Position numbers and translations under genes: made by a program. DNA of 64,000 nucleotides from Odiellus spinosus (taxonomy: Eukaryota; Arthropoda; Arachnida; Opiliones; Phalangiidae): contig OY987240.1 in the NCBI GenBank assembly GCA_963920705.1, forward strand, positions 5,978,766 through 6,042,765, in the 5' to 3' direction. The notes below the pieces were generated by a model, which was given only the letters and a program-made list of their open reading frames with translations, was not told the DNA's origin and made no database searches. Each line of letters starts with the position of its first letter. The stretch's first letter is position 1. This document shows, piece by piece, positions 2,654 through 60,668 of this stretch.

Positions 2654-2738
2654 TAGGTACAATGTTAAACTTTCATTGAACTTCAGTATTTTATGTCATT
2701 TTTGCTTTTATAAAAGGTACAGTACTTTCAGATCTTAA

Positions 2739-2811
2739 GTATCTATGGTGTAGTGGTTATCACGTCCGCCTCACACGCGGAAGGACCCAGGTTCGAGCCC
2801 TGGTAGGCACA
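2739..2811 (+). tRNA. tRNA-Val(CAC), first full unit
   Basis: 73-nt cloverleaf with anticodon loop CTCACAC. One acceptor mismatch (A3-C70, 3' strand TAGGCAC). Other stems pair. Confidence 0.65.
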
Positions 2812-3274
2812 ATGTTAAACTTTCATTGAACTTCAGTATTTTATGTCGTTTTTGCTTTTATAAAAGGTACAGTACTTTCTGATCTTAAGTATCTATGGTG
2901 TAGTGGTTAACACGTCCGATTTACACGCGGAAGGACCCAGGTTCGAGCCTTGCTAGGTACAATGTTAAACGTTCATTGAACTTCAGTATTTTATGTCATT
3001 TATGCTTTTATAAAAGGTACAGTACTACCTGAACTTAAGTATCTATGGTATAGTGGTTATCACGTCTGCCTAACACGCGGAAGGACCCAGGTTGTATAAA
3101 AGATATACAACAGATGAAGGATAAGTATCTATAGTGTAGTGGTAATCACGACCGCCTTACACTCGGAAGGACCCAGGTTCGAGCCCTGGCAGGTACAATG
3201 TCAAACTTTCATTGAACTTTGGTATTTTATGTCATTTTTGCTTTTATAAAAGGTACAGTACTTCGTGATCATAA

Positions 3275-3347
3275 GTATCTATGGTGTAGTGGTTATCACG
3301 TCCGCCTCACACGCGGAGGGACCCAGGTTCGAGCCCTGGTAGGTACA
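3275..3347 (+). tRNA. tRNA-Val(CAC)
   Basis: All stems pair (acceptor GTATCTA/TAGGTAC with a T4-G69 wobble). The variable loop reads GGGAC instead of AGGAC. Confidence 0.78.
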
Positions 3348-3394
3348 ATGTTAAACTTTCATTGAACTTCAGTATTTTATGTCATTTTTGCTTT

Positions 3395-3401
3395 TATAAA
3401 A
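3395..3401 (+). promoter_or_regulatory. TATA-like element at -30 (representative)
   Basis: TATAAAA begins 30 bases before G1 of the tRNA at 3425. The same element at the same distance precedes most units: type 1 spacers read TATAAAAGGTACAGTAC and type 2 read TATAAAAGATATACAAC. A few units have TTTAAAA or TGTAAAA instead. Upstream TATA-like elements aid Pol III initiation on tRNA genes in some eukaryotes; use here is inferred. Confidence 0.6.
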
Positions 3402-3431
3402 GGTACAGTACTTTCTGATCTTAAGTATCTA

Positions 3432-3442
3432 TGGTGTAGTGG
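3432..3442 (+). promoter_or_regulatory. Pol III A box (representative)
   Basis: TGGTGTAGTGG at tRNA positions 8-18 fits the internal A box of tRNA genes. It is lost in the 3'-half units of the array. Confidence 0.7.
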
Positions 3443-3475
3443 TTATCACGTCCGCCTAACACGCGGAAGGACCCA

Positions 3476-3485
3476 GGTTCGAGCC
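3476..3485 (+). promoter_or_regulatory. Pol III B box (representative)
   Basis: GGTTCGAGCC at tRNA positions 52-61 matches the TFIIIC-binding B box consensus GGTTCGANNCC. It is intact in most full units and absent from the 5'-half units. Confidence 0.8.
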
Positions 3486-3524
3486 CTGGTAGATACAATG
3501 TTAAGATGTCATTGATCTTTGGTA

Positions 3525-3539
3525 TTTTATGTCATTTTT
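3525..3539 (+). terminator. Oligo-T Pol III terminators (representative)
   Basis: T4 at 3525-3528 and T5 at 3535-3539 lie about 28 and 38 bases after the tRNA at 3425. The arrangement TATTTTATGTCATTTTTGC recurs in nearly every spacer, so primary transcripts would carry a 3' trailer of about 30-40 nt. Confidence 0.6.
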
Positions 3540-4012
3540 GCTTTTATAAAAGATATACAACAGATGAAGGATAAGTATCTATGGTGTAGTGGTAATCACG
3601 TCCGCCTTACACGCGGAAGGGCCCTGGTAGGTACAATGTTAAGATTTCATTGATCTTTGGTATTTTATGTCATTTTTGCTTTTATAAAAGATATACAACA
3701 GGTGAGGGATAAGTATCTATGGCGTAGTGGTTATCACGTCCGAGTAACGCGCGGGAGGACCGAGGTTCGAGTCCTGGTAGGTACAATGTTGAACTTTCAT
3801 TGAACTTTGGTATTTTATGTCATTTTTGCTTTTATAAAAGATATACAACAGATGAAGGATAAATATCTATGGTGTAGTGGTAATCACGTCCGAGTAACGC
3901 GCGGGAGGACCGAGGTTCGAGTCCTGGTAGGTACAATGTTGAACTTTCATTGAACTTTGGTATTTTATGTCATTTTTGCTTTTATAAAAGGTACAGTATT
4001 TTCTGATCTTTA

Positions 4013-4085
4013 GTATCTATGGTGTAGTGGCTATCACGTCCGCCTCACACGCGGAAGGACCCAGGTTCGAGCCCTGGTAGGTACA
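4013..4085 (+). tRNA. tRNA-Val(CAC)
   Basis: Stems pair; the D loop reads GGCTATC rather than GGTTATC. Confidence 0.75.
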
Positions 4086-4162
4086 ATGTTAAACTTTCAT
4101 TGAACTTCAGTATTTTATGTCTTTTTTGCTTTTATAAAAGGTACAGTACTTTCTGATCTTAA

Positions 4163-4235
4163 GTATCTATGGTGTAGTGGTTATCACGTCCGCCTAACAC
4201 GCGGAAGGACCCAGGTTCGAGCCCTGGTAGATACA
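4163..4235 (+). tRNA. tRNA-Val(AAC)
   Basis: Identical in structure to the copy at 3425, with every stem Watson-Crick paired. Confidence 0.84.
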
Positions 4236-4309
4236 ATGTTAAGATTTCATTGATCTTTGGTATTTTATGTCATTTTTGTTTTTATAAAAGATATACAACA
4301 GAAGGGTGA

Positions 4310-4382
4310 GTATCTATTGTGTAGAGGTTATCACGTCCGCCTCACACGCGGAAGGACCCAGGTTCGAGCCCTGGTAGGTACA
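4310..4382 (+). tRNA. tRNA-Val(CAC)
   Basis: T9 instead of G9 and a D-loop G-to-A change (GTAGAGG); stems otherwise pair. Short GAAGGGTGA upstream spacer. Confidence 0.65.
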
Positions 4383-4459
4383 ATGTTAAACTTTCATTGA
4401 ACTTCAGTATTTTATGTCATTTTTGCTTTTATAAAAGGTACAGTACTTTCTGATCTTAA

Positions 4460-4532
4460 GTATCTATGGTGTAGTGGTTGTCACGTCCGCCTAACACGCG
4501 GAAGGACCCAGGTTCGAGCCCTGGTAGATACA
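4460..4532 (+). tRNA. tRNA-Val(AAC)
   Basis: Stems pair; D-arm position 21/22 changed (GGTTGTC). Confidence 0.75.
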
Positions 4533-4878
4533 ATGTTAGGATGTCATTGATCTTTGGTATTTTATGTCATTTTTGCTTTTATAAAAGATATACAACAGGT
4601 GAAGGATAAGTATCTATGGCGTAGTGGTTATCACGTCCGCCTAACGCGCGGAAGGACCGAGGTTCGAGTTCTGGTAGATACAATGTTAAGCTTTCATTGA
4701 TCTTTGGGATTTTATGTCATTTTTGCTTTTATAAAAGATATACAACAGAAGGTGTCCGCCTTACACGCGGAAGGACCCAGGTTCGAGCCCTGGTAGGTAC
4801 AATGTTGAACTTTCATTGAACTTTGGTATTTTATGTCATTTTTGCTTTTATAAAAGATATGCAACAGATGAAGGATAA

Positions 4879-4951
4879 GTATCTATGGTGTAGTGGTAGT
4901 CACGTCCGCCTTACACGCGGAAGGACCCAGGTTCGAGCCCTGGTAGGTACA
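4879..4951 (+). tRNA. tRNA-Val(TAC)
   Basis: Anticodon loop CTTACAC; stems pair; D loop reads GGTAGTC. Lead unit of the first complete 1.10-kb higher-order repeat. Confidence 0.75.
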
Positions 4952-5028
4952 ATGTTAAACTTTCATTGAACTTCAGTATTTTATGTCATTTTTGCTTTTT
5001 TAAAAGGTACAGTACTTTCTGATCTTAA

Positions 5029-5101
5029 GTATCTATGGTGTAGTGGTTATCACGTCCGATTGACACGCGGAAGGACCCAGGTTCGAGCCTTGCTAGGTAC
5101 A
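5029..5101 (+). pseudogene. tRNA-Val-like, anticodon GAC
   Basis: Loop TTGACAC would give a GAC (Val) anticodon, but the top anticodon pair and the T stem (CCAGG/CTTGC) are broken. Member of the degenerate class. Confidence 0.55.
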
Positions 5102-5264
5102 ATGTTAAACTTTCATTGAACTTCAGTATTTTATGTCATTTATGCTTTTATAAAAGGTGCAGTACTACCTAAACTTAAGTATCTATGGTATAGTGGTTAT
5201 CACGTCTGCCTAACACGCGGAAGGACCCAGGTTGTATAAAAGATATACAACAGATGAAGGATAA

Positions 5265-5337
5265 GTATCTATAGTGTAGTGGTAATCACGTCCGCCTTAC
5301 ACGCGGAAGTACCCAGGTTCGAACCCTGGTAGGTACA
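5265..5337 (+). tRNA. tRNA-Val(TAC), A9 family
   Basis: A at position 9, variable loop AGTAC and T loop TTCGAAC; all stems pair. It follows a 5'-half unit only 86 bp upstream. Confidence 0.75.
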
Positions 5338-5563
5338 ATGTTAAACTTTCATTGAACTTTGGTATTTTATGTCATTTTTGCTTTTTTAAAAGGTACAGTA
5401 CTTCGTGATCTTAAGTATCCGTGGTGTAGTGGTTATCACGTCCTTCTCACACGCGGAAGGAGCCAGGTTCGAGCCCTGGTAAGTACAATGTTAAACTTTC
5501 ATAGAACTTCAGTATTTTATGTCATTTTTGCTTTTTAAAAGGTACAGTACTATCTGATCTTAA

Positions 5564-5636
5564 GTATCTATGGTGTAGTGGTTATCACGTCCGCCTAACA
5601 CGCGGAAGGACCCAGGTTCGAGCCCTGGTAGATACA
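5564..5636 (+). tRNA. tRNA-Val(AAC)
   Basis: All stems Watson-Crick paired (TAGATAC). The upstream TATA is weakened to TTTAAAA. Confidence 0.82.
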
Positions 5637-5982
5637 ATGTTAAGATGTCATTGATCTTTGGTATTTTATGTCATTTTTGCTTTTATAAAAGATATACAAC
5701 AGGTGAAGGATAAGTATCTATGGCGTAGTGGTTATCACGTCCGCCTAACGCGCGGAAGGACCGAGGTCCGAGTCCTGGTAGATACAATGTTAAGCTTTCA
5801 TTGATCTTTGGGATTTTATGTCATTTTTGCTTTTATAAAAGATATACAACAGAAGGTGTCCGCCTTACACGCGGAAGGACCCAGGTTCGAGCCCTGGTAG
5901 GTACAATGTTGAACTTTCATTGAACTTTGGTATTTTATGTCATTTTTGCTTTTATAAAAGATATACAACAGATGAAGGATAA

Positions 5983-6055
5983 GTATCTATGGTGTAGTGG
6001 TAATCACGTCCGCCTTACACGCGGAAGGACCCAGGTTCGAGCCCTGGTAGGTACA
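5983..6055 (+). tRNA. tRNA-Val(TAC)
   Basis: Consensus TAC copy (D loop GGTAATC, T stem CCAGG/CCTGG). Lead unit of a 1104-bp repeat. Confidence 0.82.
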
Positions 6056-6367
6056 ATGTTAAACTTTCATTGAACTTCAGTATTTTATGTCATTTTTGCT
6101 TTTTTAAAAGGTACAGTACTTTTTGATCTTAAGTATCTATGGTGTAGTGGTTATCACGTCCGATTTACACGCGGAAGGACCCAGGTTCGAGCCTTGCTAG
6201 GTACAATGTTAAACTTTCATTGAACTTCAGTATTTATGTCATTTATGCTTTTATAAAAGGTACAGTACTACCTGAACTTAAGTATCTATGGTATAGTGGT
6301 TATCACGTCTGCCTAACACGCGGAAGGACCCAGGTTGTATAAAAGATATACAACAGCTGAAGGATAA

Positions 6368-6440
6368 GTATCTATAGTGTAGTGGTAATCACGTCCGCCT
6401 TACACGCGGAAGTACCCAGGTTCGAACCCTGGTAGGTACA
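6368..6440 (+). tRNA. tRNA-Val(TAC), A9 family
   Basis: All stems pair; T loop TTCGAAC. Confidence 0.75.
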
Positions 6441-6667
6441 ATGTTACACTTTCATTGAACTTTGGTATTTTATGTCATTTTTGCTTTTATAAAAGGTACA
6501 GTACTTCGTGATCTTAAGTATCTGTGGTGTAGTGGTTATCACGTCCTCCTCACACGCGGAAGGAGCCAGGTTCGAGCCCTGGTAAGTACAATGTTAAACT
6601 TTCATAGAACTTCAGTATTTTATGTCATTTTTGCTTTTATAAAAGGTACAGTACTATCTGATCTTAA

Positions 6668-6740
6668 GTATCTATGGTGTAGTGGTTATCACGTCCGCCT
6701 AACACGCGGAAGGACCCAGGTTCGAGCCCTGGTAGATACA
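6668..6740 (+). tRNA. tRNA-Val(AAC)
   Basis: All stems Watson-Crick paired. Confidence 0.84.
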
Positions 6741-7086
6741 ATGTTAAGATGTCATTGATCTTTGGTATTTTATGTCATTTTTGCTTTTATAAAAGATATA
6801 CAACAGGTGAAGGATAAGTATCTATGGCGTAGTGGTTATCACGTCCGCCTAACGCGCGGAAGGACCGAGGTTCGAGTCCTGGTAGATACAATGTTAAGCT
6901 TTCATTGATCTTTGGGATTTTATGTCATTTTTGCTTTTATAAAAGATATACAACAGAAGGTGTCCGCCTTACACGCGGAAGGACCCAGGTTCGAGCCCTG
7001 GTAGGTACAATGTTGAACTTTCATTGAACTTTGGTATTTTATGTCATTTTTGCTTTTATAAAAGATATACAACAGATGAAGGATAA

Positions 7087-7159
7087 GTATCTATGGTGTA
7101 GTGGTAATCACGTCCGCCTTACACGCGGAAGGACCCAGGTTCGAGCCCTGGTAGGTACA
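7087..7159 (+). tRNA. tRNA-Val(TAC)
   Basis: Consensus TAC copy, exactly 1104 bp after the one at 5983. Confidence 0.82.
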
Positions 7160-7471
7160 ATGTTAAACTTTCATTGAACTTCAGTATTTTATGTCATTTT
7201 TGCTTTTTTAAAAGGTACAGTACTTTCTGATCTTAAGTATCTATGGTGTAGTGGTTATCACGTCCGATTTACACGCGGAAGGACCCAGGTTCGAGCCTTG
7301 CTAGGTACAATGTTAAACTTTCATAGAACTTCAGTATTTATGTCATTTATGCTTTTATAAAAGGTACAGTACTACCTGAACTTAAGTATCTATGGTATAG
7401 TGGTTATCACGTCTGCCTAACACGCGGAAGGACCCAGGTTGTATAAAAGATATACAACAGCTGAAGGATAA

Positions 7472-7544
7472 GTATCTATAGTGTAGTGGTAATCACGTCC
7501 GCCTTACACGCGGAAGTACCCAGGTTCGAACCCTGGTAGGTGCA
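7472..7544 (+). tRNA. tRNA-Val(TAC), A9 family
   Basis: 3' strand TAGGTGC gives a T2-G71 wobble; other stems pair. Confidence 0.7.
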
Positions 7545-7771
7545 ATGTTAAACTTTCATTGAACTTTGGTATTTTATGTCATTTTTGCTTTTATAAAAGG
7601 TACAGTACTACCTGAACTTAAGTATCTATGGTATAGTGGTTATCACGTCCTCCTCACACGCGGAAGGACCCAGGTTCGAGCCCTGGTAAGTACAATGTTA
7701 AACTTTCATTGAACTTCAGTATTTTATGTCATTTTTGCTTTTATAAAAGGTACAGAACTTTCTGATCTTAA

Positions 7772-7844
7772 GTATCTATGGTGTAGTGGTTATCACGTCC
7801 GCCTAACACGCGGAAGGACCCAGGTTCGAGCCCTGGTAGATACA
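7772..7844 (+). tRNA. tRNA-Val(AAC)
   Basis: All stems Watson-Crick paired. Confidence 0.84.
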
Positions 7845-8190
7845 ATGTTAAGATGTCATTGATCTTTGGTATTTTATGTCATTTTTGCTTTTATAAAAGA
7901 TATACAACAGGTGAAGGATAAGTATCTATGGCGTAGTGGTTATCACGTCCGCCTAACGCGCGGAAGGACCGAGGTTCGAGTCCTGGTAGATACAATGTTA
8001 AGCTTTCATTGATCTTTGGGATTTTATGTCATTTTTGCTTTTATAAAAGATATACAACAGAAGGTGTCCGCCTTACACGCGGAAGGACCCAGGTTCGAGC
8101 CCTGGTAGGTACAATGTTGAACTTTCATTGAACTTTGGTATTTTATGTCATTTTTGCTTTTATAAAAGATATACAACAGATGAAGGATAA

Positions 8191-8263
8191 GTATCTATGG
8201 TGTAGTGGGAATCACGTCCGCCTTACACGCGGAAGGACCCAGGTTCGAGCCCTGGTAGGTACA
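8191..8263 (+). tRNA. tRNA-Val(TAC)
   Basis: Stems pair; D loop GTGGGAATC carries a T-to-G change. Confidence 0.7.
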
Positions 8264-8575
8264 ATGTTAAACTTTCATTGAACTTCAGTATTTTATGTCA
8301 TTTTTGCTTTTTTAAAAGGTACAGTACTTTCTGATCTTAAGTATCTATGGTGTAGTGGTTATCACGTCCGATTTACACGCGGAAGGACCCAGGTTCGAGC
8401 CTTGCTAGGTACAATGTTAAACTTTCATGGAACTTCAGTATTTATGTCATTTATGCTTTTATAAAAGGTACAGTACTACCTGAACTTTAGTATCTATGGT
8501 ATAGTGGTTATCACGTCTGCCTAACACGCGGAAGGACCCAGGTTGTATAAAAGATATACAACAGCTGAAGGATAA

Positions 8576-8648
8576 GTATCTATAGTGTAGTGGTAATCAC
8601 GTCCGCCTTACACGCGGAAGTACCCAGGTTCGAACCCTGGTAGGTACA
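8576..8648 (+). tRNA. tRNA-Val(TAC), A9 family
   Basis: All stems pair. Confidence 0.75.
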
Positions 8649-9144
8649 ATGTTAAACTTTCATTGAACTTTGGTATTTTATGTCATTTTTGCTTTTATAA
8701 AAGGTACAGTACTATCTGATCTTAAGTATCTATGGTGTAGTGGTTATCACGTCCTCCTAACACGCGGAAGGACCCAGGTTCGAGCCCTGGTAGATACAAT
8801 GTTAAGATGTCATTGATCTTTGGTATTTTATGTCATTTTTGCTTTTATAAAAGATATACAACAGGTGAAGGATAAGTATCTATGGCGTAGTGGTTATCAC
8901 GTCCGCCTAACGCGCGGAAGGACCGAGGTTCGAGTCCTGGTAGATACAATGTTAAGCTTTCATTGATCTTTGGGATTTTATGTCATTTTTGCTTTTATAA
9001 AAGATATACAACAGAAGGTGTCCGCCTTACACGCGGAAGGACCCAGGTTCGAGCCCTGGTAGGTACAATGTTGAACTTTCATTGAACTTTGGTATTTTAT
9101 GTCATTTTTGCTTTTATAAAAGATATACAACAGATGAAGGATAA

Positions 9145-9217
9145 GTATCTATGGTGTAGTGGTAATCACGTCCGCCTTACACGCGGAAGGACCCAGGTTC
9201 GAGCCCTGGTAGGTACA
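9145..9217 (+). tRNA. tRNA-Val(TAC)
   Basis: Consensus TAC copy. The preceding repeat is one unit shorter than usual. Confidence 0.82.
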
Positions 9218-9979
9218 ATGTTAAACTTTCATTGAACTTCAGTATTTTATGTCATTTTTGCTTTTTTAAAAGGTACAGTACTTTCTGATCTTAAGTATCT
9301 ATGGTGTAGTGGTTATCACGTCCGATTTACACGCGGAAGGACCCAGGTTCGAGCCTTGCTAGGTACAATGTTAAACTTTCATGGAACTTCAGTATTTATG
9401 TCATTTATGCTTTTATAAAAGGTACAGTACTACCTGAACTTAAGTATCTATGGTATAGTGGTTATCACGTCTGCCTAACACGCGGAAGGACCCAGGTTGT
9501 ATAAAAGATATACAACAGCTGAAGGATAAGTATCTATAGTGTAGTGGTAATCACGTCCGCCTTACACGCGGAAGTACTCAGGTTCGAACCCTGGTAGGTA
9601 CAATGTTAAACTTTCATTGAACTTTGGTATTTTATGTCATTTTTGCTTTTATAAAAGGTACAGTACTTCGTGATCTTAAGTATCTATGGTGTAGTGGTTA
9701 TCACGTCCTCCTCACACGCGGAAGGACCCAGGTTCGAGCCCTGGTAAGTACAATGTTAAACTTTCATTGAACTTCAGTATTTTATGTCATTTTTGCTTTT
9801 ATAAAAGGTACAGAACTTTCTGATCTTAAGTATCTATGGTGTAGTGGTTATCACGTCCGCCTAACACGCGGAAGGACCGAGGTTCGAGCCCTGGTAGGTA
9901 CAATGTTAAATTTTCATTGAACTTCAGTATTTTATGTCTTTTTTGCTTTTATAAAAGGTACAGTACTTTCTGATCTTAA

Positions 9980-10052
9980 GTATCTATGGTGTAGTGGTAA
10001 TCACGTCCGCCTTACACGCGGAAGGACCCAGGTTCGAGCCCTGGTAGGTACA
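9980..10052 (+). tRNA. tRNA-Val(TAC), recombinant flank
   Basis: TAC body (GGTAATC) preceded by the type 1 flank normally found with AAC and CAC genes, so an exchange probably joined the two. Confidence 0.8.
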
Positions 10053-11083
10053 ATGTTAAACTTTCATTGAACTTCAGTATTTTATGTCATTTTTGCTTTT
10101 TTAAAAGGTACAGTACTTTCTGATCTTAAGTATCTATGGTGTAGTGGTTATCACGTCCGATTTACACGCGGAAGGACCCAGGTTCGAGCCTTGCTAGGTA
10201 CAATGTTAAACTTTCATGGAACTTCAGTATTTATGTCATTTATGCTTTTATAAAAGGTACAGTACTACCTGAACTTAAGTATCTATGGTATAGTGGTTAT
10301 CACGTCTGCCTAACACGCGGAAGGACCCAGGTTGTATAAAAGATATACAACAGCTGAAGGATAAGTATCTATAGTGTAGTGGTAATCACGTCCGCCTTAC
10401 ACGCGGAAGTACTCAGGTTCGAACCCTGGTAGGTACAATGTTAAACTTTCATTGAACTTTGGTATTTTATGTCATTTTTGCTTTTATAAAAGGTACAGTA
10501 CTTCGTGATCTTAAGTATCTATGGTGTAGTGGTTATCACGTCCTCCTCACACGCGGAAGGACCCAGGTTCGAGCCCTGGTAAGTACAATGTTAAACTTTC
10601 ATTGAACTTCAGTATTTTATGTCATTTTTGCTTTTATAAAAGGTACAGAACTTTCTGATCTTAAGTATCTATGGTGTAGTGGTTATCACGTCCGCCTAAC
10701 ACGCGGAAGGACCCAGGTTCGAGCCATGGTAGATACAATGTTAAGATGTCATTGATCTTTGGTATTTTATGTCATTTTTGCTTTTATAAAAGATATACAA
10801 CAGGTGAAGGATAAGTATCTATGGCGTAGTGGTTATCACGTCCGCCTAACGCGCGGAAGGACCGAGGTTCGAGTCCTGGTAGATACAATGTTAAGCTTTC
10901 ATTGATCTTTGGGATTTTATGTCATTTTTGCTTTTATAAAAGATATACAACAGAAGGTGTCCGCCTTACACGCGGAAGGACCCAGGTTCGAGCCCTGGTA
11001 GGTACAATGTTGAACTTTCATTGAACTTTGGTATTTTATGTCATTTTTGCTTTTATAAAAGATATACAACAGATGAAGGATAA

Positions 11084-11156
11084 GTATCTATGGTGTAGTG
11101 GTAATCACGTCCGCCTTACACGCGGAAGGACCCAGGTTCGAGCCCTGGTAGGTACA
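11084..11156 (+). tRNA. tRNA-Val(TAC)
   Basis: Consensus TAC copy, 1104 bp after the one at 9980. Confidence 0.82.
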
Positions 11157-11768
11157 ATGTTAAACTTTCATTGAACTTCAGTATTTTATGTCATTTTTGC
11201 TTTTTTAAAAGGTACAGTACTTTCTGATCTTAAGTATCTATGGTGTAGTGGTTATCACGTCCGATTTACACGCGGATGGACCCAGGTTCGAGCCTTGCTA
11301 GGTACAATGTTAAACTTTCATTGAACTTCAGTATTTATGTCATTTATGCTTTTATAAAAGGTACAGTACTACCTGAACTTAAGTATCTATGGTATAGTGG
11401 TTATCACGTCTGCCTAACACGCGGAAGGACCCAGGTTGTATAAAAGATATACAACAGCTGAAGGATAAGTATCTATAGTGTAGTGGTAATCACGTCCGAC
11501 TTACACGCGGAAGTACCCAGGTTCGAACCCTGGTAGGTGCAATGTTAAACTTTCATTGAACTTTGGTATTTTATGTCATTTTTGCTTTTATAAAAGGTAC
11601 AGTACTTCGTGATCTTAAGTATCTATGGTGTAGTGGTTATCACGTCCTCCTCACACGCGGAAGGACCCAGGTTCGAGCCCTGGTAAGTACAATGTTAAAC
11701 TTTCATTGAACTTCAGTATTTTATGTCATTTTTGCTTTTATAAAAGGTACAGAACTTTCTGATCTTAA

Positions 11769-51335: not shown

Positions 51336-51412
51336 ATGTTAAACTTTCATTGAACTTCAGTATTTTATGTCATTTTTGCTTTTATAAAAGGTACAGTACT
51401 TTCCGATTTTAA

Positions 51413-51485: not shown

Positions 51486-51562
51486 ATGTTAAACTTTCAT
51501 TGAACTTCAGTATTTTATGTCATTTTTGCTTTTATAAAAGGTACAGTACTTTCTGATCTTAA

Positions 51563-51635
51563 GTATTTATGGTGTAGTGGTTATCACGTCCGCCTCACAC
51601 GCGGAAGGACCCAGGTTCGAGCCCTGGTAGGTACA
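51563..51635 (+). tRNA. tRNA-Val(CAC)
   Basis: Acceptor GTATTTA gives a T5-G68 wobble; other stems pair. Confidence 0.76.
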
Positions 51636-51798
51636 ATGTTAAACTTTCATTGAACTTCAGTATTTTATGTCATTTATGCTTTTATAAAAGGTACAGTACT
51701 ACCTGAACTTAAGTATCTATGGTATAGTGGTTATCACGTCTGCCTAACACGCGGAAGGACCCAGGTTGTATAAAAGATATACAACAGATTAAGGATAA

Positions 51799-51871
51799 GT
51801 ATCTATAGTGTAGTGGTAATCACGTCCGCCTTACACGCGGAAGGACCCAGGTTCGAGCCCTGGTAGATACA
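51799..51871 (+). tRNA. tRNA-Val(TAC)
   Basis: A9 with TTCGAGC and TAGATAC; stems pair. Confidence 0.76.
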
Positions 51872-52095
51872 ATGTTAAGATTTCATTGATCTTTGGTATT
51901 TTATGTCATTTTTGTTTTTATAAAAGATATACAACAGAAGGGTAAGTATCTATTGTGTAGTGGTTATTACGTCCGCCTCACACGCGGAAGGACCCAGGTT
52001 CGAGCCCTGGTAGGTACAATGTTGTACTTTCATTGAACTTTGGTATTTTATGTCATTTTTGCTTTTATAAAAGATATACAACAGATGAAGGATAA

Positions 52096-52168
52096 GTATC
52101 TATGGTGTAGTGGTAATCACGTCCGCCTTACACGCGGAAGGACCCAGGTTCGAGCCCTGGTAGGTACA
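52096..52168 (+). tRNA. tRNA-Val(TAC)
   Basis: Consensus TAC copy. Confidence 0.82.
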
Positions 52169-52836
52169 ATGTTAAACTTTCATTGAACTTCAGTATTTTA
52201 TGTCATTTTTGCTTTTATAAAAGGTACAGTACTTTCTGACCTAAGTATCTATGGTGTAGTGGTTATCACGTCGAATTTACACGCGGAAGGACCCAGGTTC
52301 GAGCCTTGCTAGGAATAATGTTAAACTTTCATTGAACTTCAGTATTTTATGTCCTTTATGCTTTTATAAAAGGTACAGTACTACCTGAACTTAAGTATCT
52401 ATGGTATAGTGGTTATCACGTCTGCCTAACACGCGGAAGGACCCCGGTTGTATAAAAGATATACAACAGATTAAGGATAAGTATCTATAGTGTAATGGTA
52501 CTCATGTCCGACTTACACGCGGAAGGACCCAGGTTCGAGCCCTGGTAGGTACAATGTTAAACTTTCATTGAACTATGGTATTTTATGTCATTTTTGCTTT
52601 TATAAAAGGTACAGTACTTCGTGATCTTAAGTATCTATGGTGTAGTGGTTATGTCATTTATGCTTTTATAAAAGGTACAGTACTACCTGAACTTAAGTAT
52701 CTATGGTATAGTAGTTATCACGTCCGCCTAACACGCGGAAGGACCCAGGTTCGAGCCCTGGTAGATACAATGTTAAGATTTCTTTGGTATTTTATGTCAT
52801 TTTTGTTTTTATAAAAGATATACAACAGAAGGGTAA

Positions 52837-52909
52837 GTATCTATGGTGTAGTGGTTATCACGTCCGCCTCACACGCGGAAGGACCCAGGTTCGAGCCCTG
52901 GTAGGTACA
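52837..52909 (+). tRNA. tRNA-Val(CAC)
   Basis: Spacer type 3 copy; stems pair. Confidence 0.82.
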
Positions 52910-52986
52910 ATGTTGAACTTTCATTGAACTTTGGTATTTTATGTCATTTTTGCTTATATAAAAGATATACAACAGATGAAGGATAA

Positions 52987-53059
52987 GTATCTATGGTGTA
53001 GTGGTAATCACGTCCGCCTTACACGCGGAAGGACCCAGGTTCGAGCCCTGGTAGGTACA
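52987..53059 (+). tRNA. tRNA-Val(TAC)
   Basis: Consensus body; the upstream T-run before TATAAAA is altered (GCTTATATAAAA). Confidence 0.81.
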
Positions 53060-53286
53060 ATGTTAAACTTTCATTGAACTTCAGTATTTTATGTCATTTT
53101 TGCTTTTATAAAAGGTACAGTACTTTCTGATCTTAAGTAACTATCGTGTAGTGGTTATCACGTCCGCCTCACACGCGGAAGGACCCAGGTTCGAGCCCTG
53201 GTAGGTACAATGTTAAACTTTCATTGAACTTCAGTATTTTATGTCATTTATGCTTTTATAAAAGGTACAGTACTACCTGAACTTAA

Positions 53287-53359
53287 GTATCTATGGTATA
53301 GTGGTTATCACGTCCGCCTAACACGCGGAAGGACCCAGGTTCGAGCCCTGGTAGATACA
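53287..53359 (+). tRNA. tRNA-Val(AAC)
   Basis: GGTATAGTGG D arm, consensus anticodon and T arms; all stems pair. Confidence 0.82.
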
Positions 53360-53980
53360 ATGTTAAGATTTCTTTGGGTTTTTATGTCATTTTTGTTTTT
53401 ATAAAAGATATACAACAGAAGGGTAAGTATCTATGGTGTAGTGGTTATCACGTCCGCCTCACACGCGGAAGGACCCAGGTGCGAGCCCTGGTAGGTACAA
53501 TGTTAAACTTTCATTGAACTTCAGTATTTTATGTCATTTTTGCTTTTATAAAAGGTACAGTACTTTCTGATCTTAAGTATCTATGGTGTAGTGGTTATCA
53601 CGTCCGCCTCACACGCGGAAGGACCCAGGTTCGAGCTAAAAGATTTTTGTTTTTATAAAAGATATACAACAGAAAGGTAAGTGACTATGGTGTAGTGGTT
53701 ATCACGTCCGCCTCACACGCGGAAGGACCCAGGTTCGAGCCCTGGTAGGTACAATGTTGAACTTTCATTGAACTTTGGTATTTTATGTCATTTTTGCTTT
53801 TATAAAAGATATACAACAGATGAAGGATAAGTATCTATGGTGTAGTGGTAATCACGTCCGCCTTACACGCGGAAGGACGCAGGTTCGAGCCCTGGTAGGT
53901 ACAATGTTAAACTTTCATTGAACTTCAGTATTTTATGTCATTTTTGCTTTTATAAAAGGTACAGTACTTTCTGATCTTAA

Positions 53981-54053
53981 GTATCTATCGTGTAGTGGTT
54001 ATCACGTCCGCCTCACACGCGGAAGGACCCAGGTTCGAGCCCTGGTAGGTACA
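53981..54053 (+). tRNA. tRNA-Val(CAC)
   Basis: C9 variant (CTATCGTG); stems pair. Confidence 0.76.
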
Positions 54054-54216
54054 ATGTTAAACTTTCTTTGAACTTCAGTATTTTATGTCATTTATGCTTT
54101 TATAAAAGGTACAGTACTACCTAAACTTAAGTATCTATGGTATAGTGGTTATCACGTCTGCCTAACACGCGGAAGGACCCAGGTTGTATAAAAGATATAC
54201 AACACATGAAGGATAA

Positions 54217-54289
54217 GTATCTATGGTGTAGTGGTAATCACGTCCGCCTTACACGCGGAAGGACCCAGGTTCGAGCCCTGGTAGGTACA
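54217..54289 (+). tRNA. tRNA-Val(TAC)
   Basis: Consensus TAC body after a 5'-half unit. Confidence 0.82.
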
Positions 54290-54366
54290 ATTTTAAACTT
54301 TCATTGAACTTCAGTATTTTATGTCATTTATGCTTTTATAAAAGGTACAGTACTACCTGAACTTAA

Positions 54367-54439
54367 GTATCTATGGTATAGTGGTTATCACGTCCGCCTA
54401 ACACGCGGAAGGACCCAGGTTCGAGCCCTGGTAGATACA
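54367..54439 (+). tRNA. tRNA-Val(AAC)
   Basis: GGTATAGTGG D arm; all stems pair. Confidence 0.82.
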
Positions 54440-54910
54440 ATGTTAAGATTTCTTTGGTATTTTATGTCATTTTTGTTTTTATAAAAGATATACAACAGAA
54501 GGGTAAGTATCTATGGTGTAGTGGTTATCACGTCCGCCTCACACGCGGAAGGACCCAGGTGCGAGCCCTGGTAGGTACAATGTTAAACTTTCATTGAACT
54601 TCAGTATTTTATGTCATTTTTGCTTTTATAAAAGGTACAGTACTTTCTGATCTTAAGCATCTATGGTGTAGTGGTTATCACGTCCGCCTCACACGCGGAA
54701 GGACCCAGGTTCGAGCTAAAAGATTTTTGTTTTTATAAAAGATATACAACAGAAGGGTAAGTGACTATGGTGTAGTGGTTATCACGTCCGCCTCACACGT
54801 GGAAGGACCCAGGTTCGAGCCCTGGTAGGTACAATGTTGAACTTTCATTGAACTTTGGTATTTTATGTCATTTTTGCTTTTATAAAAGATATACTACAGA
54901 TGAAGGATAA

Positions 54911-54983
54911 GTATCTATGGTGTAGTGGTAATCACGTCCGCCTTACACGCGGAAGGACCCAGGTTCGAGCCCTGGTAGGTACA
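54911..54983 (+). tRNA. tRNA-Val(TAC)
   Basis: Consensus TAC copy; same place in the repeat as 56288, 57665, 59042. Confidence 0.82.
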
Positions 54984-55060
54984 ATGTTAAACTTTCATTG
55001 AACTTCAGTATTTTATGTCATTTTTGCTTTTATAAAAGGTACAGTACTTTCTGATCTTAA

Positions 55061-55133
55061 GTATCTATCGTGTAGTGGTTATCACGTCCGCCTCACACGC
55101 GGAAGGACCCAGGTTCGAGCCCTGGTAGGTACA
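55061..55133 (+). tRNA. tRNA-Val(CAC)
   Basis: C9 variant; stems pair. Confidence 0.76.
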
Positions 55134-55296
55134 ATGTTAAACTTTCATTGAACTTCAGTATTTTATGTCATTTATGCTTTTATAAAAGGTACAGTACTAC
55201 CTAAACTTAAGTATCTATGGTATAGTGGTTATCACGTCTGCCTAACACGCGGAAGGACCCAGGTTGTATAAAAGATATACAACACATGAAGGATAA

Positions 55297-55369
55297 GTAT
55301 CTATGGTGTAGTGGTAATCACGTCCGCCTTACACGCGGAAGGACCCAGGTTCGAGCCCTGGTAGGTACA
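55297..55369 (+). tRNA. tRNA-Val(TAC)
   Basis: Consensus TAC body after a 5'-half unit. Confidence 0.82.
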
Positions 55370-55593
55370 ATTTTAAACTTTCATTGAACTTCAGTATTTT
55401 ATGTCATTTTTGCTTTTATAAAAGGTACAGTACTTTCTGATATTAAGTATCTATGGTGTAGTGGTTATCACGTCCGCCTAACACGCGGAAGGACGCAGGT
55501 TCGAGCCCTGGTAGATATAATGTTAAGATTTCTTTGATCTTTGGTATTTTATGTCATTTTTGTTTTTATAAAAGATATACAACAGAAGGGTAA

Positions 55594-55666
55594 GTATCTA
55601 TTGTGTAGTGGTTATCACGTCCGCCTCACACGCGGAAGGACCCAGGTTCGAGCCCTGGTAGGTACA
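55594..55666 (+). tRNA. tRNA-Val(CAC)
   Basis: T9 variant; stems pair. Confidence 0.75.
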
Positions 55667-55743
55667 ATGTTAAACTTTCATTGAACTTCAGTATTTTATG
55701 TCATTTATGCTTTTATAAAAGGTACAGTACTACCTGAACTTAA

Positions 55744-55816
55744 GTATCTATGGTATAGTGGTTATCACGTCCGCCTAACACGCGGAAGGACCCAGGTTCG
55801 AGCCCTGGTAGATACA
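55744..55816 (+). tRNA. tRNA-Val(AAC)
   Basis: GGTATAGTGG D arm; all stems pair. Confidence 0.82.
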
Positions 55817-55883
55817 ATGTTAAGATTTCTTTGGTATTTTATGTCATTTTTGTTTTTATAAAAGATATACAACTGAAGGGTAA

Positions 55884-55956
55884 GTATCTATGGTGTAGTG
55901 GTTATCACGTCCGCCTCACACGCGGAAGGACCCAGGTTCGAGCCCTGGTAGGTACA
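55884..55956 (+). tRNA. tRNA-Val(CAC)
   Basis: Spacer type 3 copy; stems pair. Confidence 0.82.
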
Positions 55957-56287
55957 ATGTTAAACTTTCATTGAACTTCAGTATTTTATGTCATTTTTGC
56001 TTTTATAAAAGGTACAGTACTTTCTGATCTTAAGTATCTATGGTGTAGTGGTTATCACGTCCGCCTCACACGCGGAAGGACCCAGGTTCGAGCTAAAAGA
56101 TTTTTGTTTTTATAAAAGATATACAACAGAAGGGTAAGTAACTATGGTGTAGTGGTTATCACGTCCGCCTCACACGCGGAAGGACCCAGGTTCGAGCCCT
56201 GGTAGGTACAATGTTGAACTTTCATTGAACTTTGGTATTTTATGTCATTTTTGCTTTTATAAAAGATATACAACAGATGAAGGATAA

Positions 56288-56360
56288 GTATCTATGGTGT
56301 AGTGGTAATCACGTCCGCCTTACACGCGGAAGGACCCAGGTTCGAGCCCTGGTAGGTACA
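56288..56360 (+). tRNA. tRNA-Val(TAC)
   Basis: Consensus TAC; 1377 bp after 54911. Confidence 0.82.
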
Positions 56361-56673
56361 ATGTTAAACTTTCATTGAACTTCAGTATTTTATGTCATTT
56401 TTGCTTTTATAAAAGGTACAGTACTTTCTGATCTTAAGTATCTATCGTGTAGTGGTTATCACGTCCGCCTCACACGCGGAAGGACCCAGGTTCGAGCATT
56501 GGTAGGTACAATGTTAAACTTTCATTGAACTTCAGTATTTTATGTCATTTATGCTTTTATAAAAGGTACAGTACTACCTAAACTTAAGTATCTATGGTAT
56601 AGTGGTTATCACGTCTGCCTAACACGCGGAAGGACCCAGGTTGTATAAAAGATATACAACACATTAAGGATAA

Positions 56674-56746
56674 GTATCTATGGTGTAGTGGTAATCACGT
56701 CCGCCTTACACGCGGAAGGACCCAGGTTCGAGCCCTGGTAGGTACA
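56674..56746 (+). tRNA. tRNA-Val(TAC)
   Basis: 1377 bp after 55297; stems pair. Confidence 0.82.
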
Positions 56747-56970
56747 ATTTTAAACTTTCATTGAACTTCAGTATTTTATGTCATTTTTGCTTTTATAAAA
56801 GGTACAGTACTTTCTGATATTAAGTATCTATGGTGTAGTGGTTATCACGTCCGCCTAACACGCGGAAGGACGCAGGTTCGAGCCCTGGTAGATATAATGT
56901 TAAGATTTCTTTGATCTTTGGTATTTTATGTCATTTTTGTTTTTATAAAAGATATACAACAGAAGGGTAA

Positions 56971-57043
56971 GTATCTATTGTGTAGTGGTTATCACGTCCG
57001 CCTCACACGCGGAAGGACCCAGGTTCGAGCCCTGGTAGGTACA
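56971..57043 (+). tRNA. tRNA-Val(CAC)
   Basis: T9 variant; 1377 bp after 55594. Confidence 0.75.
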
Positions 57044-57120
57044 ATGTTAAACTTTCATTGAACTTCAGTATTTTATGTCATTTATGCTTTTATAAAAGGT
57101 ACAGTACTACCTGAACTTAA

Positions 57121-57193
57121 GTATCTATGGTATAGTGGTTATCACGTCCGCCTAACACGCGGAAGGACCCAGGTTCGAGCCCTGGTAGATACA
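57121..57193 (+). tRNA. tRNA-Val(AAC)
   Basis: 1377 bp after 55744; all stems pair. Confidence 0.82.
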
Positions 57194-57664
57194 ATGTTAA
57201 GATTTCTTTGGTATTTTATGTCATTTTTGTTTTTATAAAAGATATACAACAGAAGGGTAAGAATCTATGGTGTAGTGGTTATCACGTCCGCCTCACACGC
57301 GGAAGGACCCAGGTTCGAGCCCTGGTAGGTACAATGTTAAACTTTCATTGAACTTCAGTATTTTATGTCATTTTTGCTTTTATAAAAGGTACAGTACTTT
57401 CTGATCTTAAGTATCTATGGTGTAGTGGTTATCACGTCCGCCTCACACGCGGAAGGACCCAGGTTCGAGCTAAAAGATTTTTGTTTTTATAAAAGATATA
57501 CAACAGAAGGGTAAGTAACTATGGTGTAGTGGTTATCACGTCCGCCTCACACGCGGAAGGACCCAGGTTCGAGCCCTGGTAGGTACAATGTTGAACTTTC
57601 ATTGAACTTTGGTATTTTATGTCATTTTTGCTTTTATAAAAGATATACAACAGATGAAGGATAA

Positions 57665-57737
57665 GTATCTATGGTGTAGTGGTAATCACGTCCGCCTTAC
57701 ACGCGGAAGGACCCAGGTTCGAGCCCTGGTAGGTACA
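57665..57737 (+). tRNA. tRNA-Val(TAC)
   Basis: 1377 bp after 56288. Confidence 0.82.
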
Positions 57738-58050
57738 ATGTTAAACTTTCATTGAACTTCAGTATTTTATGTCATTTTTGCTTTTATAAAAGGTACAGTA
57801 CTTTCTGATCTTAAGTATCTATCGTGTAGTGGTTATCACGTCCGCCTCACACGCGGAAGGACCCAGGTTCGAGCATTGGTAGGTACAATGTTAAACTTTC
57901 ATTGAACTTCAGTATTTTATGTCATTTATGCTTTTATAAAAGGTACAGTACTACCTAAACTTAAGTATCTATGGTATAGTGGTTATCACGTCTGCCTAAC
58001 ACGCGGAAGGACCCAGGTTGTATAAAAGATATACAACACATGAAGGATAA

Positions 58051-58123
58051 GTATCTATGGTGTAGTGGTAATCACGTCCGCCTTACACGCGGAAGGACCC
58101 AGGTTCGAGCCCTGGTAGGTACA
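58051..58123 (+). tRNA. tRNA-Val(TAC)
   Basis: 1377 bp after 56674. Confidence 0.82.
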
Positions 58124-58347
58124 ATTTTAAACTTTCATTGAACTTCAGTATTTTATGTCATTTTTGCTTTTATAAAAGGTACAGTACTCTCTGATATTAA
58201 GTATCTATGGTGTAGTGGTTATCACGTCCGCCTAACACGCGGAAGGACGCAGGTTCGAGCCCTGGTAGATATAATGTTAAGATTTCTTTGATCTTTGGTA
58301 TTTTATGTCATTTTTGTTTTTATAAAAGATATACAACAGAAGGGTAA

Positions 58348-58420
58348 GTATCTATTGTGTAGTGGTTATCACGTCCGCCTCACACGCGGAAGGACCCAGG
58401 TTCGAGCCCTGGTAGGTACA
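58348..58420 (+). tRNA. tRNA-Val(CAC)
   Basis: T9 variant; 1377 bp after 56971. Confidence 0.75.
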
Positions 58421-58497
58421 ATGTTAAACTTTCATTGAACTTCAGTATTTTATGTCATTTATGCTTTTATAAAAGGTACAGTACTACCTGAACTTAA

Positions 58498-58570
58498 GTA
58501 TCTATGGTATAGTGGTTATCACGTCCGCCTAACACGCGGAAGGACCCAGGTTCGAGCCCTGGTAGATACA
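58498..58570 (+). tRNA. tRNA-Val(AAC)
   Basis: 1377 bp after 57121; all stems pair. Confidence 0.82.
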
Positions 58571-58637
58571 ATGTTAAGATTTCTTTGGTATTTTATGTCA
58601 TTTTTGTTTTTATAAAAGATATACAACAGAAGGGTAA

Positions 58638-58710
58638 GTATCTATGGTGTAGTGGTTATCACGTCCGCCTCACACGCGGAAGGACCCAGGTTCGAGCCCT
58701 GGTAGGTACA
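58638..58710 (+). tRNA. tRNA-Val(CAC)
   Basis: Consensus CAC; the equivalent at 57261 has an acceptor mismatch (GAATCTA). Confidence 0.82.
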
Positions 58711-59041
58711 ATGTTAAACTTTCATTGAACTTCAGTATTTTATGTCATTTTTGCTTTTATAAAAGGTACAGTACTTTCTGATCTTAAGTATCTATGGTGT
58801 AGTGGTTATCACGTCCGCCTCACACGCGGAAGGACCCAGGTTCGAGCTAAAAGATTTTTGTTTTTATAAAAGATATACAACAGAAGGGTAAGTAACTATG
58901 GTGTAGTGGTTATCACGTCCGCCTCACACGCGGAAGGACCCAGGTTCGAGCCCTGGTAGGTACAATGTTGAACTTTCATTGAACTTTGGTATTTTATGTC
59001 ATTTTTGCTTTTATAAAAGATATACAACAGATGAAGGATAA

Positions 59042-59114
59042 GTATCTATGGTGTAGTGGTAATCACGTCCGCCTTACACGCGGAAGGACCCAGGTTCGAG
59101 CCCTGGTAGGTACA
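59042..59114 (+). tRNA. tRNA-Val(TAC)
   Basis: 1377 bp after 57665. Confidence 0.82.
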
Positions 59115-59724
59115 ATGTTAAACTTTCATTGAACTTCAGTATTTTATGTCATTTTTGCTTTTATAAAAGGTACAGTACTTTCTGATCTTAAGTATCTATC
59201 GTGTAGTGGTTATCACGTCCGACTCACACGCGGAAGGACCCAGGTTCGAGCCTTGGTAGGTACAATGTTAAACTTTCATTGAACTTCAGTATTTTATGTC
59301 ATTTATGCTTTTATAAAAGGTACAGTACTACCTAAACTTAAGTATCTATGGTATAGTGGTTATCACGTCTGCCTAACACGCGGAAGGACCCAGGTTGTAT
59401 AAAAGATATACAACACATGAAGGATAAGTATCTATGGTGTAGTGGTAATCACGTCCGCCTTACTCGCGGAAGGACCCAGGTTCGAGCCCTGGTAGGTACA
59501 ATTTTAAACTTTCATTGAACTTCAGTATTTTATGTCATTTTTGCTTTTATAAAAGGTACAGAACTTTCTGATATTAAGTATCTATGGTGTAGTGGTTATC
59601 ACGTCCGCCTAACACGCGGAAGGACGCAGGTTCGAGCCCTGGTAGATATAATGTTAAGATTTCTTTGATCTTTGGTATTTTATGTCATTTTTGTTTTTAT
59701 AAAAGATATACAACAGAAGGGTAA

Positions 59725-59797
59725 GTATCTATTGTGTAGTGGTTATCACGTCCGCCTCACACGCGGAAGGACCCAGGTTCGAGCCCTGGTAGGTACA
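59725..59797 (+). tRNA. tRNA-Val(CAC)
   Basis: T9 variant; 1377 bp after 58348. Confidence 0.75.
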
Positions 59798-59874
59798 ATG
59801 TTAAACTTTCATTGAACTTCAGTATTTTATGTCATTTATGCTTTTATAAAAGGTACAGTACTACCTGAACTTAA

Positions 59875-59947
59875 GTATCTATGGTATAGTGGTTATCACG
59901 TCCGCCTAACACGCGGAAGGACCCAGGTTCGAGCCCTGGTAGATACA
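59875..59947 (+). tRNA. tRNA-Val(AAC)
   Basis: 1377 bp after 58498. Confidence 0.82.
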
Positions 59948-60014
59948 ATGTTAAGATTTCTTTGGTATTTTATGTCATTTTTGTTTTTATAAAAGATATA
60001 CAACAGAAGGGTAA

Positions 60015-60087
60015 GTATCTATGGTGTAGTGGTTATCACGTCCGCCTCACACGCGGAAGGACCCAGGTTCGAGCCCTGGTAGGTACA
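60015..60087 (+). tRNA. tRNA-Val(CAC)
   Basis: 1377 bp after 58638. Confidence 0.82.
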
Positions 60088-60418
60088 ATGTTAAACTTTC
60101 ATTGAACTTCAGTATTTTATGTCATTTTTGCTTTTATAAAAGGTACAGTACTTTCTGATCTTAAGTATCTATGGTGTAGTGGTTATCACGTCCGCCTCAC
60201 ACGCGGAAGGACCCAGGTTCGAGCTAAAAGATTTTTGTTTTTATAAAAGATATACAACAGAAGGGTAAGTAACTATGGTGTAGTGGTTATCACGTCCGCC
60301 TCACACGCGGAAGGACACAGGTTCGAGCCCTGGTAGGTACAATGTTGAACTTTCATTGAACTTTGGTATTTTATGTCATTTTTGCTTTTATAAAAGATAT
60401 ACAACAGATGAAGGATAA

Positions 60419-60491
60419 GTATCTATGGTGTAGTGGTAATCACGTCCGCCTTTCACGCGGAAGGACCCAGGTTCGAGCCCTGGTAGGTACA
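60419..60491 (+). tRNA. tRNA-Val body with anticodon TTC
   Basis: Loop CTTTCAC (Glu GAA type); stems pair. The three equivalents 1377, 2754 and 4131 bp upstream have TAC, so the change is recent. Confidence 0.62.
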
Positions 60492-60568
60492 ATGTTAAAC
60501 TTTCATTGAACTTCAGTATTTTATGTCATTTTTGCTTTTATAAAAGGTACAGTACTTTCTGATCTTAA

Positions 60569-60641
60569 GTATCTATCGTGTAGTGGTTATCACGTCCGCC
60601 TCACACGCGGAAGGACCCAGGTTCGAGCCTTGGTAGGTACA
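60569..60641 (+). tRNA. tRNA-Val(CAC)
   Basis: C9 variant; T stem CCAGG/CTTGG has a G52-T62 wobble. Last unit before the LINE. Confidence 0.72.
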
Positions 60642-60668
60642 ATGTTAAACTTTCATTGAACTTCAGTA

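Follow-up and report, generated by a model that had tools for sequence, protein, structure and literature searches.

A tandem array of over 1,000 valine tRNA units in Odiellus spinosus: a candidate tRNA-derived satellite

A valine tRNA body of the AAC/CAC type is repeated together with its spacer more than 1,000 times in tandem on one chromosome of Odiellus spinosus, and a chance origin of this array is ruled out. We hold with moderate confidence that it is a tRNA-derived satellite, which keeps part of the RNA polymerase III (Pol III) signals, namely T-runs, TATA and the B-box core but not the A box, whilst the tRNA fold drifts. The array apparently captures a gene in the course of turning into a satellite, while the genome retains ordinary genes of that type.

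Extent and organization of the array

In the window, the whole 64,000-nucleotide stretch of DNA analysed, BLAST identifies 316 tRNA-Val body matches and 286 spacer matches, all on the forward strand, in five blocks with a summed length of 43.8 kb (Table 1). The original prediction of about 315 same-strand units occupying 43-44 kb is borne out, as is that of roughly 100 complete cloverleaves, there being 239 complete 73-mers, among them 114 free of mispairs over 20 scored pairs. The anticodons of these 239 bodies are TAC (93), CAC (68), AAC (67) and others (11). ARAGORN reports 237 tRNAs in the window and 230 matches to Rfam RF00005 lie at or above the gathering threshold; the best scores 69.1 bits and the best 150 of the 230 all score at least 55.5 bits.

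The array was originally placed at positions 2,654 to 60,668 of the window, limits which proved too narrow. It continues on contig C18 of the 443-Mb genome, where a stretch of 237,765 bp contains 1,061 body matches on the same strand, about 150 kb of array spanning C18 5,832,680 to 6,049,675, and 819 tRNAs according to ARAGORN. Beyond this stretch further array matches occur on C18 between 5.64 and 6.65 Mb, and one body match is found on C195. Contigs C17 and C18 start in other short tandem repeats and (TTAGG)n is present at one end of each of three contigs inspected, as would fit an arthropod.

The most frequent unit spacing is 150 bp and truncated units recur along with full ones. Different stretches show higher-order periods of 1,104, 1,313 and 1,377 bp, and longer repeats of 11.6-13.2 kb contain inserts that are 99.8-100% alike. 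The satellite-like, head-to-tail order proposed at the outset is correct in that the units are in tandem; the higher-order periods and recurring truncated units do not fit a plain monomer array. What is expected of a satellite was found, a short unit in a long head-to-tail array with higher-order repeats of the kind left by unequal exchange.

The elements inserted in the array have multiplied together with it. When the element nested within the largest insert is compared with three inserts lying upstream of the window, its longest matches are 99.1-99.5% identical, and a related copy of the 100-bp tandem repeat is carried inside an insert at C18:5861989-5866513.

Table 1. Positions of array blocks, inserts and example units in the window
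Positions	Strand	Feature	Details
366..2505	+	Separate 100-bp tandem repeat	Breaks up the tRNA array
2662..15913	+	Array block 1	1,104-bp higher-order repeat
2739..2811	+	First intact tRNA-Val body (CAC)	Illustrates the 73-nt body
2838..2866	+	Example of the 29-bp spacer block	T-runs with TATAAAAG at the end, at about -30 relative to the following tRNA; one variant base in this copy
5265..5337	+	High-scoring tRNA-Val copy (TAC)	66.8 bits
15914..17794	+	DNA transposon remnant between blocks	30-nt inverted repeats (93%) near ends; THAP9-type transposase fragment
17795..26427	+	Array block 2	1,313-bp period in the 18-31 kb stretch
26450..27333		0.9-kb inserted element	40-nt terminal inverted repeats (95%)
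27335..30743	+	Array block 3	
30744..34384		3.6-kb inserted element	>99.6% alike to the two outer parts of the 36806-44629 insert
34385..36805	+	Array block 4	
36806..44629		Copy of the 3.6-kb element	Second element nested inside
44630..60673	+	Array block 5	1,377-bp higher-order repeat

A conserved spacer block and a drifting tRNA fold

Of 1,067 body matches 1,038 are in full register and 813 of those passed as intact, a set chosen on body similarity and hence biased towards making the body look conserved. The TATA motif TATAAAAG occurs within 40 bp upstream of 750 of the 813, starting at -30 in 642, and TTTT within 60 bp downstream of 811. A B box is present in 717 and an A box in 708. Alignment of the 706 intact units with the next unit at 130-152 bp (396 unique sequences) and a minimum spanning tree place 2.4 substitutions per site in the 29-bp spacer block, as opposed to 7.9 in both the remaining spacer and the tRNA body, a level of conservation reached by none of 20,000 permutations. 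Block divergence is lower than that of body and trailer in all 44 subsamples of a test using 704 of the 706 units. T sites display 1.25 substitutions per site within the block and 7.2 elsewhere, and T and A sites outside it change several times more often than those inside. The B-box core, positions 53-57, averages 2.6 substitutions per site. The A box (7.4) and whole B box (7.1) do not exceed the remaining body in conservation, and constraint is thus seen in only some of the Pol III signals.

Could such a pattern arise in a neutral satellite, the unit being without a role and the block conserved through a bias in local mutation or gene conversion? Higher-order repeats and truncated units are the expected product of unequal exchange, and the lack of special conservation in the A box and of retained stem pairing, described below, also speaks for it. 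Single-copy variants, which may include assembly errors, are however equally frequent in block and body (0.59 and 0.58 per site) whilst multi-copy variants are rarer in the block (0.55 compared to 1.76; Fisher p=0.003), evidence against a mutational cold spot; together with the greater change at T and A positions beyond the block this makes a plain cold spot unlikely. The singleton test of block against trailer alone gives only p=0.051. Biased conversion is a possible cause of block conservation and we judge the neutral explanation as a whole unlikely.

Truncated units at the commonest spacing, 70 of 113 three-prime and 78 of 107 five-prime, were also compared. In the 70 three-prime-truncated units TATA has no variants over eight sites and the 55-nt body remnant has 13. 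The block contrast, to the benefit of the neutral explanation, is not seen in the 78 five-prime-truncated units, an impure class with few events that includes at least 15 one-base-shifted full bodies; the downstream block there carries four single-copy and four multi-copy alleles, the body remnant 10 and one. In 58 peripheral units the block is again the most conserved part (2.7%), with the body at 6.3%, position 34 included, clearly below the trailer at 12.8%. On average the body diverges by 0.035, about half the 0.076 of the trailer, which leaves room for some constraint on it.

Stem substitutions display no preference for pairing, the pair being kept in 72 of 255 changes to previously intact pairs compared to 80.5 expected. 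A further 63 substitutions, in pairs already broken, were set apart; 53 restored pairing and 10 did not. At least one mispair is present in 448 of the 813 intact copies and 365 have none. The anticodons are near-equal in number (CAC 267, AAC 256, TAC 254) with GAC in one copy. We set aside the near-absence of G34 as proof of selection, as the three anticodon classes may represent three founder lineages. Position 34 accounts for 32 tree events, more than any other tabulated group in the body, and recombination may be responsible for them. In single-sequence folding, which is weak evidence, the minimum-energy structure of the two array variants tried (CAC and TAC) is not a cloverleaf, whereas that of the dispersed gene resembles one. 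The corresponding centroid folds retain three or four arms, however, and none of the z-scores is notable; minimum-energy z-scores of individual tRNAs were uninformative as a test.

Dispersed valine tRNA genes and the role of the array

Five AAC genes dispersed off C18, of the source type, have the same 73-nt body and unrelated flanks. Four CAC matches and one TAC mini-cluster also lie off C18, and the idea that the array is the sole source of valine tRNA in the genome is rejected. The proposed comparison with other tRNA-Val genes has yielded a distinguishing base, though not the one anticipated. The GTATCTA acceptor, put forward as a diagnostic mark of the array, is common to the array and the dispersed AAC and TAC genes examined and does not serve that purpose. 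Position 47 separates the sets, T47 being present in all seven dispersed genes examined (five AAC, two TAC) and in only three of the 813 array copies; none of the 813 is identical to a dispersed AAC gene. A tRNA-derived SINE is rejected for want of dispersal across chromosomes, since the first 100 of 894 exact spacer-block matches, in contig order, start on C18, leaving none on C1-C17.

The original prediction offered a tRNA supply locus as one option. The array would then be a genuine family of genes supplying valine tRNA in bulk or to particular tissues, with pseudogenes as by-catch, in the manner of the Arabidopsis Ser-Tyr-Tyr cluster. The balanced anticodons with a single GAC, the mispair-free copies, Rfam scores of up to 69.1 bits, promoter and terminator signals in 708-811 of the 813 copies and a body that diverges half as much as the trailer are all consistent with this. 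The Arabidopsis cluster likewise has flank-enriched pseudogenes and is expressed in special cells (PMC12308677). Valine genes off C18 and stem substitutions that ignore pairing weaken the case, as do the number of mispaired copies, the differences from the dispersed AAC gene noted above and, to a small degree, the non-cloverleaf folds. Some of the array may still produce valine tRNA, but the dispersed genes can cover the ordinary need. We regard a supply locus as improbable, on a par with the neutral explanation.

A satellite born from a tRNA gene, another of the options first listed, is supported by tandem units that all lie on one strand, by the higher-order repeats, by inserts that were amplified and by a source-type gene elsewhere in the genome. 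On this preferred reading most units would still be able to assemble a Pol III complex and this assembly, not the finished tRNA, would be the property retained as the units spread, since conservation is seen in the terminator/TATA block and not in stem pairing. Occupied tRNA units would most likely act as fork-pausing, recombination-prone sites, at which unequal exchange could bring about continued expansion and homogenisation of units still bearing the signals. A stronger form of the proposal, that the Pol III promoter and terminator drive their own copy number, fork pausing leading to unequal exchange and mainly units with an intact TATA/T-run block being multiplied, would make the array a self-amplifying satellite to which the RNA product is irrelevant. 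We consider this speculative and rather doubtful. The array provides a clean test of transcription signals versus RNA product in deciding which repeats spread, and would also allow the effect of hundreds of adjacent Pol III units on replication and chromatin to be tested.

TFIIIC binding alone does not require T-run conservation, which counts against the array being a chromatin element (the TFIIIC-dense domain among the options first listed), that is a dense row of TFIIIC/TFIIIB sites kept for the benefit of the host as a boundary, clustering centre or pericentromere-like domain. The A box, no more conserved than the body, is a further difficulty. TATA, T-runs and B-box core are nevertheless the quietest parts of the unit, and the array occupies a mid-chromosome domain of about 1 Mb, where a different tandem repeat and multiplied inserts are likewise present in the part read. 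In humans a tandem repeat of tRNA genes has been implicated as a boundary via CTCF (PMC4041453). Taken together such a role appears a poor prospect.

Comparison with other tRNA arrays

No title or abstract among the literature records listed concerned a valine tRNA satellite. The tRNA expansions of zebrafish and African clawed frog are tandem in layout and involve many isotypes, unlike the single-isotype, short-unit satellite described here. Zebrafish has 10,471 tRNA loci and the frog 3,457 (PMC9858662), and the genome carrying the valine array resembles them in having thousands.

In Entamoeba histolytica almost all tRNA genes are arrayed, in 25 array units of up to five tRNA genes each that make up over 10% of the genome, with no clear evidence of pseudogene copies (PMC2652664). 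The two systems share a tandem arrangement, high copy number, dispersed genes for some tRNAs and an obscure function. The valine array differs in serving one amino acid, with one tRNA per unit of about 150 bp and many mispaired copies. Many multi-tRNA units holding nearly all tRNA genes, the Entamoeba pattern, are not what is observed; there is one tRNA per unit, and single Lys, Thr, Arg, Cys, Ala and Val genes lie outside the array (63 tRNA candidates of the genome scored).

The Arabidopsis Ser-Tyr-Tyr cluster comprises 54 Tyr genes, clustered in units of three genes and two isotypes (PMC12308677). Both it and the valine array are clusters beside dispersed genes of the same isotype, with a core and variable flanks with pseudogenes; the valine array is distinguished by over 1,000 copies, one isotype, three anticodons and a 150-bp unit. 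The human 1q23.3 tRNA VNTR has a 7.3-kb unit in 9-43 copies with a conserved CTCF site, tRNA genes occupying less than 6% of the unit (PMC4041453), and resembles the valine array in that its tRNA genes form part of a large tandem repeat.

The valine array is not a single case, since C17 carries an array of tRNA-Ala. This second array too has a single isotype on one strand and mixed anticodons (TGC and CGC in the part read), with a unit of about 160 bp. It extends over only about 20 kb and, unlike the valine array, has a body far less diverged than the spacer, 0.0156 compared to 0.0629 or a quarter, over 16 aligned units. The alanine array offers a comparison for the valine array, one in which the tRNA bodies look better preserved.

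Extent and architecture of the valine tRNA array

In the window, 316 matches to a valine tRNA body and 286 to the spacer lie on the + strand throughout, in five array blocks with a summed length of 43.8 kb. ARAGORN finds 237 tRNAs and Rfam 230 tRNA matches at or above the gathering threshold. There are 239 complete 73-mers, 114 of them without a mispair over the 20 pairs scored, so the original prediction of about 315 units, roughly 100 folding as complete cloverleaves, was approximately correct.

The window corresponds to C18:5978766-6042765. The contiguous 237,765 bp of contig C18 enclosing it hold 1,061 body matches, on the + strand only, and 819 tRNAs according to ARAGORN. Array DNA amounts to 149.7 kb, between positions 5,832,680 and 6,049,675. 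Further body matches, part of them on the minus strand, occur on C18 at 5.64-5.78 Mb and 6.20-6.65 Mb; sequence was read at 5.636, 5.775-5.788, 6.206-6.213 and 6.281-6.284 Mb, the remaining sites being matches only. Our analysis is based on one assembly (443 Mb, 286 contigs), in which a 26-mer from the spacer block has 842 exact matches in forward and 52 in reverse orientation. Of these, 613 fall in the 237,765-bp stretch, and scaling from the counts suggests roughly 1,550 array bodies in the whole genome. In contig order, the first 100 places listed for the 26-mer begin on C18; therefore contigs C1-C17 carry no exact copy.

The unit comprises the 73-nt body and, most often, 77 bp of spacer. 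Among 813 intact bodies, selected from 1,038 in full register, 750 have TATAAAAG within 40 bp upstream (starting 30 bp ahead of the body in 642 of those) and 811 have TTTT within 60 bp downstream. The B box GGTTCGANNC is present in 717 and the A box in 708. Three anticodons are almost equally frequent, CAC (267), AAC (256) and TAC (254), with a single GAC and 35 others. The 3′ test is failed by 115 of the 1,038 bodies and the 5′ test by 110, the latter an impure group with at least 15 full bodies shifted by one base; most failing bodies are truncated units, themselves repeated.

Three parts of the window display higher-order periods of 1,104, 1,313 and 1,377 bp. Upstream of the window the periods are 11.6-13.2 kb and three 3.9-kb inserts share 99.8-100% identity, indicating that the inserts were copied together with the array, and recently.

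Substitution in the spacer block, body and stems

Substitution rates come from a minimum spanning tree that connects 396 unique units, with the alignment set chosen by body similarity and unit length. The tRNA body comes out at 7.9 substitutions per site, the trailer at 6.7 and the leader at 9.4. The 29-bp block ATTTTATGTCATTTTTGCTTTTATAAAAG has 2.4, a value matched relative to other spacer in 0 of 20,000 permutations, and its TATA part 1.4. T sites carry 1.25 substitutions in the block as opposed to 7.2 elsewhere. Block divergence is below that of both body and trailer in all 44 subsamples, each consisting of 16 units. Single-copy variants per site are similar in block (0.59) and body (0.58), whereas multi-copy variants are three times rarer in the block; block mutations look as if they arise yet fail to spread. 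Fisher tests of the block variant spectrum give p values of 0.003 against body, 0.051 against trailer and 7e-5 against leader.

Stem substitutions keep pairing in 72 of 255 cases compared to 80.5 expected, so there is no excess of pair-keeping, and stems and loops of the array bodies do not differ (p=0.48). The sole quiet part of the boxes is the B-box core, positions 53-57, at about 2.6 substitutions per site. TATA variants number 0 in the three-prime-truncated class.

Most likely, unequal exchange amplified a Pol III unit into a satellite; at copy level, the terminator/TATA block would be retained together with the B-box core, and the RNA fold would not. Several observations count against this reading. 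The A box (7.4) and whole B box (7.1) are no more conserved than the body, and mean divergence of the body is half that of the trailer. In peripheral units, divergence rises from block (2.7%) to body (6.3%) to trailer (12.8%). The block-body contrast is absent in the five-prime-truncated class, which is impure.

Fork pausing at the tRNA units may have driven the unequal exchange. Passages of one article on yeast (PMC5413955) describe tRNA genes as obstructing replication forks and causing R-loop damage; the helicases Pif1 and Rrm3 act there and are stated to suppress direct-repeat recombination at tDNAs. The explanations offered for the array overlap and are not mutually exclusive.

Source genes and other tandem tRNA genes

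C5 and C6 carry five dispersed AAC genes that have a single common 73-nt body and unrelated flanks; four CAC matches, on C2 and C6, are each known from the matched 32-mer alone. Six TAC-query matches spaced 147-153 bp form a mini-cluster at C6:19454241-19455042, and the two units read (311 bases) are tRNA-Val(TAC) with an anticodon stem and spacer unlike those of the array. The distance between this cluster and dispersed tRNA-Val genes is about 68 kb.

No array body is identical to the dispersed AAC gene. A47 separates them (T47 occurs in 3 of 813 array bodies and 5 of 42 full peripheral bodies), and position 69 is usually G in the array (A69 in 212 of 813). The commonest array TAC bodies have an anticodon arm of AAC/CAC type, so they probably arose by a change at position 34 or recombination.

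A second single-isotype array, of tRNA-Ala, occupies C17 8,320,234-8,340,190; its spacer gives 78 exact matches, every one on C17 and the + strand. The 2.6 kb read (C17:8320300-8322900) contain 17 tRNAs with mixed TGC or CGC anticodons, mostly spaced 159-160 bp. Divergence over 16 aligned units is 0.0156 in the body and 0.0629 in the spacer, and several copies score 70.7 bits. The tRNA-Ala array looks more like a cluster of working genes.

Tandem tRNA genes are also described in Entamoeba arrays, the Arabidopsis SYY cluster, the human 1q23.3 VNTR and plant tandem duplicates, the last with clusters of identical genes reaching at most 26 (part of PMC12652284). The C18 array has a single isotype with three anticodons and over 1,000 copies of a 150-bp unit, in which folds have decayed and flanking signals are conserved; none of these other cases, in the portions consulted, unites all of those features.

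Neighbouring repeats and contig ends

Other repeats and mobile elements in the window
Feature	Window position	Strand	Details
100-bp tandem repeat	366-2505		about 22 copies; inside tRNA array domain
DNA transposon remnant	15914-17794		30-nt inverted repeats near ends; THAP9-type transposase fragment
20-bp minisatellite	40530-41055		26 copies; inside nested element
Non-LTR retrotransposon	60877-63411	-	844-aa open frame; reverse transcriptase and endonuclease domains

A relative of the 100-bp repeat sits in an insert at C18:5861989-5866513. The minus strand of the minisatellite contains three open frames that overlap, and the retrotransposon adjoins the last array block of the window. Three contigs examined, C1, C17 and C18, each carry (TTAGG)n on one end, a repeat that points to an arthropod; C1 starts with AGGTC-type repeats, C17 with 21-bp and C18 with 14-bp tandem repeats.
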